Shown here: piece by piece, positions 306-57,761 of the stretch
Position numbering within the stretch: position 1 is the first letter of the stretch
How the letters are laid out: the number at the start of each line of letters is the position of its first letter
Origin: Opitutaceae bacterium
GTDB lineage: Bacteria; Verrucomicrobiota; Verrucomicrobiia; Opitutales; Opitutaceae
Length of the DNA stretch: 64,000 nt
Direction: 5' to 3'
Assembly (NCBI GenBank): GCA_018667915.1
Contig: JABIRI010000141.1
Location: 40,022 to 104,021, forward strand
Notes under the pieces: generated by a model
What the model was told of the DNA's origin: nothing
What the model saw: only the letters and a program-made list of their open reading frames with translations
Database searches by the model: none
Program-made: the position numbers and the translations under genes

Positions 306-1673
306 ATGAACCGCGTCTACATTAAGACTTATGGCTGCCAGATGAACGAGCGCGACAGCGAGGCTGTTGCGGCGATGTTGCGTGACCGCGGATATCGCAT
401 CGTCGATGCCGAGAGCGATTGCGACATTATGTTGCTCAATACCTGCAGCGTTCGTGATGCCGCCGAGCAAAAGGCCTTGGGCAAGGCGGGTTACGTGACG
501 CACCGCAAGAGGAAGAATCCGGACTTCGTGTTAGGGATCCTCGGCTGTATGGCCCAGAACCGCGGCGAATCGATTCTAGAAAAATTGCCCGATGTCGATC
601 TGATCGTCGGCACGCAGAAATTTCACCAAGTCCCGGACTATTTGGATAATATTCGCGCGGCCAAAGATGCCGGCGTCCCGATTGGCAGCTCCATCGTCGA
701 TATTGGCGAAGAGGTGGATTCGCAGAATACGATTCGCGACCACCTCGAAACCGAAGAGCGCCAAGTCAGTGCGTTCGTTTCGATCCAGCAGGGCTGCAAT
801 ATGTCGTGCAATTTCTGTATCGTGCCCAAAACCCGCGGCGACGAACGTTCGCGGCCGATGGAAGATATCGTTGCGGAATGCCGCAACCTCGCTCAGCGGG
901 GCGTGAAAGAGATCACGCTACTCGGGCAAATCGTAACCAGCTACGGCCGTCGTGACTATCAGGGTATCAATGGCGTCTCCCCCTTCGTGCAACTCATCGA
1001 AAAAGTGCACGAGATCGAAGGCATCGAGCGCATCCGATTCACCTCTCCGCATCCGCGAGGTTTTAAGCAGGACCTGGTCGAAGCTTACGGTCGTTTACCC
1101 AAACTCTGCGAATACGTGCACCTGCCGATGCAGAGTGGCAGCAATACCATGTTGCGCGCGATGAACCGGCCTTACTCGCGGGAGCGCTACAAGGAGATCG
1201 TCGATTCACTCCGTGCCGTGCGCCCGGACATGTATTTCTCGACCGATGTGATCGTGGGTTACCCCGGCGAAACTGAGGATGACTTTCAGCAGACTAAGGA
1301 GCTCTTCGAGGCCTGCAATTTTGATATGGCCTACATCTTCAAGTATTCGATCCGCAGCGGCACGGTTGCGGCCGAGCTCGAAGATCAAATCACGGACGAG
1401 GTGAAAGAAGCGCGTAACCAAGCTTTGCTCGATGTGCTGCGGGTGAATTCCAAACGCCGCAACGAATCGCTGGTCGGGACGGTGCAAAAAGTGCTCCTCG
1501 AAGGTCCGGACAAAACCGGCAAACACTTCACCGGTCGCACCCGCGGAAATCGCGTCGCGATCGTCGATGCCGATCCCCGCTTGGTCGGCGAAATCGTCGA
1601 TATGAACGTGACGCGATCTACCATCAGCACCCTCTATGGCGATCTCGTGCTGGAAGGAGTGGGGGTGGAGTAG
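306..1673 (+). CDS. miaB: tRNA-2-methylthio-N6-dimethylallyladenosine synthase (radical SAM methylthiotransferase)
   Basis: N-terminal YIKTYGCQMN, radical SAM CNMSCNFCIVP, C-terminal TRAM-like region. Confidence 0.97.
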   Translation: MNRVYIKTYGCQMNERDSEAVAAMLRDRGYRIVDAESDCDIMLLNTCSVRDAAEQKALGKAGYVTHRKRKNPDFVLGILGCMAQNRGESILEKLPDVDLIVGTQKFHQVPDYLDNIRAAKDAGVPIGSSIVDIGEEVDSQNTIRDHLETEERQVSAFVSIQQGCNMSCNFCIVPKTRGDERSRPMEDIVAECRNLAQRGVKEITLLGQIVTSYGRRDYQGINGVSPFVQLIEKVHEIEGIERIRFTSPHPRGFKQDLVEAYGRLPKLCEYVHLPMQSGSNTMLRAMNRPYSRERYKEIVDSLRAVRPDMYFSTDVIVGYPGETEDDFQQTKELFEACNFDMAYIFKYSIRSGTVAAELEDQITDEVKEARNQALLDVLRVNSKRRNESLVGTVQKVLLEGPDKTGKHFTGRTRGNRVAIVDADPRLVGEIVDMNVTRSTISTLYGDLVLEGVGVE

Positions 1674-1715
1674 GGGGGGGGATTATTGCCGAATGTTCTC
1701 CGAGACTCGCTCCAT

Positions 1716-1752
1716 CATCTTTCTCATTACTCTTTATCCTTATCTTTATCTC
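1716..1752. repeat. left inverted-repeat arm of four-helix-bundle cassette
   Basis: CATCTTTCTCATTACTCTTTATCCTTATCTTTATCTC, inverted match to 2163-2200. Confidence 0.75.
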
Positions 1753-1772
1753 ACCCCGGCGGAGTCTTCACT

Positions 1773-2189
1773 ATGCGTAAAAAATTCGATCACGAAAAAC
1801 TTCACGCTTACCAGAAGGCCGTTGAGTTTTGCGCTTGGGCAACCCCCCTCCTCGAATCACTGCCAACCCGACTAGCCGCCCGTGATCAATTGGACCGCGC
1901 ATCAACGAGCGTCGTTCTGAACATAGCGGAAGGAAACGGGAAGCGATCCTTTCCTGATCGTTCGCGTTTTTTCGATATCGCGAGGGGTTCGGCTTTGGAG
2001 TGTGCCGCTTGTTTGGATGTTTTGATTTGTCGCGGTCAGGTGGACCTGGCCCGAGCGGATGAAGGGAAATCGCTCTTGCTCGAAGCAGTTTCCATGGTGG
2101 GTGGGCTGATTGCCCGTTTCGCTGGAGACGGTCGATTAGAAGAGGAACAAGCTGGATACGGAGAAGATAAAGATAAGGATAACGAATAA
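1773..2189 (+). CDS. four helix bundle protein (S23 / 23S rRNA intervening-sequence protein-like)
   Basis: FDHEKLHAYQKAVEFCAWA...LDRASTSVVLNIAEGNGKRS...ARGSALECAACLDVL typical of the family; start reassigned from ORF start 1686 to ATG 1773. Confidence 0.85.
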   Translation: MRKKFDHEKLHAYQKAVEFCAWATPLLESLPTRLAARDQLDRASTSVVLNIAEGNGKRSFPDRSRFFDIARGSALECAACLDVLICRGQVDLARADEGKSLLLEAVSMVGGLIARFAGDGRLEEEQAGYGEDKDKDNE

Positions 2190-2200
2190 AGATAAAGATC
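2163..2200. repeat. right inverted-repeat arm; overlaps and encodes the C-terminus (EDKDKDNE) of the four-helix-bundle CDS
   Basis: GAAGATAAAGATAAGGATAACGAATAAAGATAAAGATC. Confidence 0.75.
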
Positions 2201-2245
2201 TTTGCCCGAAGAACCCACGCGGTCTTTTGCCGAATTTCCCACACC

Positions 2246-2803
2246 ATGACCCTTTCCCTCGCCACGCTCATCACCGGTTTATTGCTCCTCATTCTTGGGG
2301 TTCTTTTTATCCTGCCGTTTCCGGCGATTGTGACCTCGATCAAGCGGTTTCCGCGTTCACGCACCTTTGCTTACGTGCTGTTTGGCGCGGGGGCGGCGTG
2401 GTTTCTCTACCGAATTACGAATCTTTCGGCGGCGGACTTTGGGCAGTATCGTAAACCACTCTTCATCTTCTTCGCGATTGTAGCCGTCAGCGCATTCAAG
2501 TTTGTGCCGGACTTTCTGGCCGTGCGCGGGGCCTGCGTGCTCGTGCTGCTTGCCGCCTCTCCGTTACTCGATGCGGGTTATATGGTTTGGGACTACGGAG
2601 AAATTACGGACGGGGGGCGAATCTACCTCTACAAAGTCGCCCTCTATATTGCGGCGGCGCTCGCCATTTATCTGGGAGCCTCTCCGTTCCGGATGCGCGA
2701 TTTCTTGGAATGGCTGTATCGTAAACCGGGTCGGGCTCGTTCGGTGGGCTTGGTAATCGCATCCTACGGTGCCGTCGTATCGGCCGTAGCCTTCACCTAC
2801 TGA
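2246..2803 (+). CDS. conserved-looking multi-pass membrane protein, function unknown
   Basis: Long hydrophobic segments, ATG start, ends just before gmk. Confidence 0.7.
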   Translation: MTLSLATLITGLLLLILGVLFILPFPAIVTSIKRFPRSRTFAYVLFGAGAAWFLYRITNLSAADFGQYRKPLFIFFAIVAVSAFKFVPDFLAVRGACVLVLLAASPLLDAGYMVWDYGEITDGGRIYLYKVALYIAAALAIYLGASPFRMRDFLEWLYRKPGRARSVGLVIASYGAVVSAVAFTY

Positions 2804-2810
2804 TTGAGCG

Positions 2811-3425
2811 ATGTCGGACGACTCTGCCAGTGCCGCTCCCGTTTTACTCGTGCTTGCCGGACCGGCGGGTTCCGGCAAAACCACGCTTTGCGAACGCATG
2901 GTGGCGGAAGTGCCCGGATTCTCCCGGGTGGTGACCAGCACGACGCGCGAGCCGCGCCCGGGCGAGGTGAACGGACGCGACTACCACTTTTTTACGGCTA
3001 AAGAATTTGACCACCGTCTCGCAGCGGATGCGTTTCTCGAATGGGCGCTCGTCCACCGCAAGCACCGCTATGGCACGTTGGCGGCATCCGTGTTCGATCC
3101 GCTCGCCGCCGGCCAGAGCCTTATCATCAACGTCGATGTTCAGGGCGTGGAGAATTTCCGGGGTGCGGCGAAAAAAAGCCCACTACTTGCGCGTCATATG
3201 GCGACGGTTTATGTCGATGTGCCCATCGATGAACTGCGGGTGCGTTTGACGGGGAGAGGCGACTCCGAGGCTGAAATCGAGCGGCGGATGGTCACGGCGG
3301 TAAAGGAACAGCAGGAGCGGGATAACTTTGATCATGTGATCACCAGTTCTTCCAAAGAGGCTGACTTTCAGGCCCTGGTGGAAATTTGGCGGGTGGCAAC
3401 GGCTCGAGTGGCCCAAGCAGATTGA
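2811..3425 (+). CDS. gmk: guanylate kinase
   Basis: P-loop GPAGSGKTTL, TSTTREPRPGEVNGRDYHF, IINVDVQG. Confidence 0.93.
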   Translation: MSDDSASAAPVLLVLAGPAGSGKTTLCERMVAEVPGFSRVVTSTTREPRPGEVNGRDYHFFTAKEFDHRLAADAFLEWALVHRKHRYGTLAASVFDPLAAGQSLIINVDVQGVENFRGAAKKSPLLARHMATVYVDVPIDELRVRLTGRGDSEAEIERRMVTAVKEQQERDNFDHVITSSSKEADFQALVEIWRVATARVAQAD

Positions 3426-11735: not shown

Positions 11736-11801
11736 AGCTGTCGGGCGTAAAGCCCGACCCACGTTGCCTCTCAGGTGGGTCGGGCTTTACGACCGACAGC
11801 T
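11736..11801. repeat. nested palindromic repeat (GTCGGGC..GCCCGACCCAC family), 27-nt arms, 26/27 match
   Basis: AGCTGTCGGGCGTAAAGCCCGACCCAC (11736-11762) vs reverse complement of 11775-11801; between convergent genes. Confidence 0.85.
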
Positions 11802-28581: not shown

Positions 28582-28655
28582 ATGTCGGGCGTAAAGCCCG
28601 ACCCACGTTAGGAAGCGCCCCGTTTGGGTGGGTCGGGCTTTATTTTGCCCGACAT
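28582..28655. repeat. nested palindromic repeat (GTCGGGC..GCCCGACCCAC family), long inverted arms
   Basis: ATGTCGGGCGTAAAGCCCGACCCAC (28582-28606) vs reverse complement of GTGGGTCGGGCTTTATTTTGCCCGACAT (28628-28655); convergent gap. Confidence 0.85.
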
Positions 28656-57662: not shown

Positions 57663-57761
57663 GCTGAAAAGCTGAAAGCTGAAAAACTGAAAAGAAGAAA
57701 GGTTTGGCGGCGACGATGCGGTTGAGGAGGGAGGGTTGATTTCAGCTGTCAGCTTTTCAGC
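57663..57761. repeat. long inverted repeat between the two pntA-part genes (22-nt arms, 21/22 match)
   Basis: GCTGAAAAGCTGAAAGCTGAAA (57663-57684) vs TTTCAGCTGTCAGCTTTTCAGC (57740-57761); GCTGAAA direct repeats inside arms; right arm encodes the PntA C-terminus. Confidence 0.8.

Follow-up and report, generated by a model that had tools for sequence, protein, structure and literature searches.

A small gene between inverted arrays

This locus raises the question of why a gene for a small four-helix-bundle protein stands between two inverted DNA arrays, and whether gene and arrays together make up a mobile unit, as the first-pass annotation had proposed, or the parts of some other partnership. 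In the window, by which we mean the whole 64,000-nt stretch of Opitutaceae DNA that was analysed, the gene occupies 1773..2189 on the + strand, is present as a single copy in its genome and encodes a protein of 138 aa of the S23-like (S23/23S-IVP) family PF05635/TIGR02436. Both the profile scores and the fold place the protein in this family, since it scores 70.4 bits against PF05635 (curated cut-off 33.8; E=1.7e-19) and 63.5 bits against TIGR02436 (curated cut-off 24), and its AlphaFold2 model (mean pLDDT 84.8) consists of four helices with a disordered, arm-encoded tail. The best fold matches in the PDB are the S23 proteins XCC0516 (2gsc), from X. campestris, and BT_0352 (2rld), followed by Avd (4dwl) and the DGR ribonucleoprotein (8ub7), and the solved relatives are pentameric rings. 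PF05635 was the sole family matched among the Pfam and NCBIfam profiles and no catalytic domain was seen.

The gene is preceded on the + strand by a conserved, putative miaB-like gene (306..1673), named from the radical-SAM motif CNMSCNFC in its translation, and followed on the same strand by a conserved 185-aa ORF (2246..2803) which matches no Pfam or NCBIfam family and served as the orthology anchor. The location had been described as a miaB-gmk spacer; the next gene 3', however, is the 185-aa ORF, with the gmk-like ORF (2811-3425) coming only after it.

The 17-nt perfect inverted repeat noted earlier (1734-1750/2166-2182; 18 nt when 1751/2165 are included) is present and forms the core of longer arms of 35 nt each (1717-1751/2165-2199) that are 89% complementary. 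Both arms have a period of 6. The left arm (1717..1751) is a purine hexamer array on the - strand (GATAAA/GATAAG/GATAAA/GAGTAAT/GAGAAAGAT) and is pyrimidine-rich on the + strand, and the right arm (2165..2199) is a purine hexamer array on the + strand (GATAAAGATAAGGATAACGAATAAAGATAAAGAT). With the same scoring, the inverted match of the flanks reaches 25 at this locus compared with 13 or less for about 1,900 intervals drawn at random from the window. The repeat encloses the gene as had been stated, except that the right arm is not outside it: this arm codes for the last residues of the protein (EDKDKDNE), holds the stop codon and continues past the gene.

The gene is long established at one site

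With the protein as query, 57 genomes yielded 11 close orthologs besides that of the window, at 60-69% identity and one per genome, each adjoining the conserved 185-aa gene. The single-copy ortholog is thus found at one site in 12 genomes, with arms at all 12, and in every case it lies between two protein genes and not in an rRNA gene. Named genomes contributed 80 loci in a further scan. Among those analysed, both neighbours are present at 37, nearly all of which are clearly armed; the genomes of these 37 are partly shared with the set of 12. Distances between the four-helix proteins follow those between the neighbour proteins (Mantel r=0.45, p=2e-4, n=31), conservation is higher in the four-helix protein than in the neighbour (68% vs 58%), and a pN/pS of 0.15-0.26 indicates purifying selection. 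Since the orthologs occur one per genome at one site, with correlated distances, a conserved protein and low pN/pS, the gene is vertically inherited with losses and not recently inserted.

This bears directly on the first-pass annotation, which had seen in the gene and its arms a candidate small mobile unit, taken here as a recent insertion, whose ends could be marked by a target-site duplication of TTGCCGAAT. The inverted repeat and the 9-mer are indeed both there, the latter on the + strand at 1686..1694 and again at 2227..2235. As a target-site duplication, however, TTGCCGAAT must be rejected, since none of the 11 orthologous loci tested has the repeat, which is private to the window genome, and 1.5% of random intervals have a 9-bp direct repeat in comparable flanks; we judge both copies to be a chance repeat outside the system. 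Spacers without the gene do exist in relatives, but they are too diverged for boundaries to be placed at 1695/2226. As the gene occurs once per genome, keeps one site in several Opitutaceae genera and is under purifying selection, the orthology refutes a recent insertion, a reading that we now consider scarcely credible, and a mobile unit consisting of the gene cassette itself is not supported.

The miaB-like/185-aa spacers of some relatives lack the four-helix gene. A lone arm remains at the miaB-side site in genome G028, and in one such spacer (L069) a single arm of the type seen in the window is left; in others (L070, L072, L073, L081) there are heptamer hairpins or single arms that belong to other types.

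The two arms change together

At the orthologous sites the letters of the arms differ while their kind is kept, being of GATAAA type in the window genome and of GAGAAC type in others. Across 38 orthologous sites, an arm matches its own partner better than the partner from another site (22.4 vs 16.6), and none of 20,000 permutations reached the observed value (p<=5e-5). This means that both arms change together. If pairing in the mRNA were what is selected, G.U mismatches should be preferred over A.C on the sense strand; the ratios are 38:40 and 17:30, without G.U excess, which gives no hint of selection for pairing in the mRNA. We therefore rejected pairing at the mRNA level, and the lack of wobble bias would speak for a DNA-level or copying process instead.

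This result weighs on the proposal that the system is regulatory, with the protein binding RNA or DNA arms at its own gene (autoregulation) as well as at the dispersed hairpins described below, which would serve as terminators or mRNA-stability elements and whose spread would be incidental. The overlap of the right arm with the 3' end of the gene, the frequent position of the hairpins in short spacers at gene ends and their long, stable stems all agree with such a role. Besides the missing wobble excess, it is opposed by the differences in hairpins between sister species and by the Rfam scan, in which no family reached the gathering level; the sub-threshold matches were to miRNA-precursor models only, which we read as generic long hairpins. 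Taken together, we regard a regulatory system as distinctly improbable.

Gene-less hairpins of the same kind

Searches with two arm patterns found 53 arm matches in the window genome and as many as 65 in related genomes, whereas the reversed patterns, run as controls, gave almost none; both patterns were counted in all genomes, and diverged arms are missed by these counts. Most of the matches sampled are hairpins without a gene, composed of two arms of about 30 nt each around a loop with a median of 36 nt. Their polarity is fixed (84:2 among 86 pairs), with the pyrimidine arm first, which is also the polarity around the gene. The first-pass annotation had likened the locus to a REPtron in which a four-helix bundle takes the transposase's place, and this likeness is borne out both by the arms at homologs and by these dispersed, matching hairpins.

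In one spacer between conserved genes, a hairpin is common to G000 and G006, G002 also has one, and G007, G003 and G005 have none, which means that hairpins are gained or lost between species. The sequence is too diverged between these species for the exact hairpin boundary to be read at that spacer, and no target-site duplication was evident by eye around gene-less hairpins. We infer from the presence/absence pattern that the hairpins are mobile and, with the association described next, that the protein may have a role in their mobility.

Dispersed arms are far more numerous where the gene is present, with a median of 38.5 per genome compared with 1.0 where it is absent (12 vs 25 genomes, MWU p=1.4e-4), in a base of 37 genomes searched with the two patterns, many of the assemblies being metagenome bins and all comparisons being between species. 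The difference holds after subtraction of the gene's own matches (p=1.7e-3) and outside the genus (p=7.6e-4), and independent contrasts on a three-gene tree give r=0.44 (one-sided p=0.01). The type of the arms at the gene also agrees with the type of the dispersed arms (Spearman 0.65, p=0.02); a similarity matrix between dispersed and gene arms was set aside as biased by the search patterns. One sister contrast that fits the association is that of G010 (49 arms) with G027 (2 arms). There are counterexamples, namely four genomes without a miaB-type ortholog that have many arm matches (G001, 51; G024, 65; G034, 33; G012, 21) and two with the gene and few dispersed arms (G004, G007). For G001, G024 and G034, which lie within or beside gene-bearing clades, recent gene loss is plausible from their position in the tree.

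What may move the hairpins

Because some hairpin-rich genomes lack the gene, the chief rival to a role for the protein stays alive, namely that the hairpins are MITE- or REP-like elements spread by another enzyme and that PF05635 genes merely hitchhike as passengers in their loops, much as S23 genes are lodged inside a 23S rRNA stem (PMC4990558). The gene and the hairpins are indeed alike in loop position and polarity. However, a passenger would not be expected to become long fixed and kept under purifying selection with arms that go on co-varying, nor should PF05635 clades then differ in the period and letters of their arrays, as they do (see below). Furthermore, a RAYT was rejected as the other enzyme on a scan that covered the transposase family Y1_Tnp: this is widespread, but arm number shows no correlation with it (rho 0.17, p=0.30), it is absent from the hairpin-rich genomes G024 and G029, and no arms were found beside 30 Y1_Tnp loci, a result which is weak alone since chance would place about one arm there at the density seen. 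On balance we consider it rather unlikely that the genes are passengers.

A reverse transcriptase was rejected as the mover as well. The Avd-like fold would fit a retro-element in which the protein has a reverse transcriptase as its partner, as Avd does in DGRs, and the hairpins spread via RNA. Against this, there was no RVT_1 match in six hairpin-rich genomes (G000, G006, G010, G030, G036 and G024), and the arms have no wobble bias, leaving a retro-element very unlikely.

The reading that we find best supported, at a probability of somewhat under one half (about 0.48), is that of a pair resembling REPIN/RAYT. The single-copy, vertically inherited locus would supply its protein half, with a ring protein that handles nucleic acids in the transposase's place. 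The other half would be the scattered gene-less hairpins, with inverted, hexamer-periodic arms of the type that flanks the gene. In such a pair, the S23/Avd-type ring would recognise the arms by reading the 6-nt register of the folded hairpin strand and would promote the copying or fixing of hairpins. Since the protein is without a catalytic domain, the chemistry would presumably be done by a host polymerase or recombinase. Other PF05635 clades may do likewise with 7-nt arrays.

Relation to known systems

RAYTs are single-copy and vertically inherited, and REPINs are more abundant where a RAYT is present (PMC8049555). The proposed pair resembles this system in its dispersed gene-less hairpins of two inverted arms that match the flanks of a gene, in a partner gene that is single-copy, vertically inherited and flanked by the same repeats, and in repeats that are commoner where that gene is present. 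It differs in that the partner is an S23/Avd four-helix bundle whereas a RAYT is an HUH/Y1 tyrosine transposase, in that the arms are 6/7-nt periodic arrays whereas REPs are GTAG-tagged, and in that movement is here read only from between-species presence/absence and correlation. Because the defining HUH transposase is missing, the system is not a member of REPIN/RAYT. Dispersed palindromic repeats without a dedicated transposase are also known as CGTC-tagged REPs (PMC3733652), which share that property with the present hairpins but are short palindromes with a CGTC end and no known protein partner.

With the intervening sequences of 23S rRNA the locus shares a protein of the same family inside a stem, and in Coxiella tandem heptamers, GACAGAT, come before the S23 ORF (PMC4990558); the present locus differs in lying outside rRNA, in its dispersed gene-less hairpins and in its co-varying arms. 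The resemblance of PF05635 to Avd has already been published (PMC10053308). Avd, which shares the fold (4dwl, 8ub7), is part of a nucleic-acid-handling RNP, but the genome of the window has no match to RVT_1.

Arrays around other PF05635 genes

Inverted arms around homologous genes, which the first-pass annotation had thought worth looking for, are common. Within the genus, inverted flank repeats above the 99th percentile of the control are found at 34 of 45 PF05635 genes, and among wider relatives of the window protein 75 of 77 have inverted arms. Relatives of the other clade in viral contigs and plasmids, mostly cyanobacterial with Gemmatirosa in addition, exceed the shuffled control in 20 of 25 cases. 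The arms are periodic at lag 6 in the clade of the window (identity 0.66-0.73) and at lag 7 in others (0.69-0.71). The recurrence of this inverted-array layout in several phyla suggests that short DNA repeats of unexplained origin have a protein partner.

Bacterial heptamer repeats have been reported repeatedly without a mechanism, and no function is assigned to the widespread PF05635 proteins. Inverted arms with a 7-nt unit also flank PF05635 genes on cyanobacterial plasmids, whereas the window's own array is of 6 nt. The cyanobacterial STRR heptamers are further comparable repeats. Intergenic 7-nt arrays of unknown origin are described in the searched text of PMC4692102 for Xanthomonas (GGGAATC) and Nostoc (GGGGA(C/T)T), with 70 nearby inverted pairs among 186 Xanthomonas sites, and in that of PMC4679880 for Beggiatoaceae (TAACTGA, again intergenic and of unknown origin); the same searched text of the two papers contains no mention of S23 or PF05635. 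Among open-access papers we found none linking PF05635 genes to dispersed repeats, so that a prior description is possible. The family may be linked to these bacterial heptamer repeats. Should the repeats have this protein as their partner, both puzzles can be tested together with a 138-aa protein and 35-nt DNA, and the pair would be a REPIN-like system whose partner is a non-transposase.

A wider proposal, which we put forward tentatively and hold to be possible though doubtful, is that PF05635/S23 proteins constitute a second, transposase-free class of REP partner, which would recognise and spread clade-specific 6-/7-nt hairpin arrays. They would then be the hidden origin of the heptamer repeats of cyanobacteria, Xanthomonas, Beggiatoaceae and others, and the 23S rRNA intervening sequences and the Avd of DGRs would be offshoots of hairpin handling.

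Other repeats and other PF05635 loci

The window also contains a gene-less hairpin with heptamer-periodic arms (57663-57761; GCTGAAAAGCTGAAAGCTGAAA / TTTCAGCTGTCAGCTTTTCAGC), which are like the arms of another PF05635 gene in the same genome (L015). A different REP-like hairpin (GTCGGGCGTAAAGCCCGACCCA...), with no 6/7-nt period, is found at 11736-11801 and 28582-28655, and its motif occurs in L028 as well. At L023 (G000, C63 at about 19202) there is a palindrome (AAGGGGTCAAACGCAAAAGATAAAGATAAATCTTTATC...) with the arm order reversed, some 600 bp from a Y1_Tnp gene (C63:19803-20132), which is probably a RAYT-type repeat outside the family of hexamer hairpins.

The hairpins of G001 are rather homogeneous. 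Two of them (L197, L204) carry, next to only one of their arms, a GC-rich mini-hairpin (TGACGACGC...GCGTCG). The two ends of the G001 element are thus distinct, and it is present in both orientations.

PF05635 genes in cas loci have been reported (PMC3936711), and on plasmid pPg_01 of Pseudanabaena galeata such a gene (L460) lies between cas6 and cas4, with no clear arms. Another PF05635 group, found in five genomes of the genus (L010, L036, L037, L038, L041), has heptamer arms of GAGTAGC and, since several of these loci have pheS-like flanks, it too seems to be at a fixed site.
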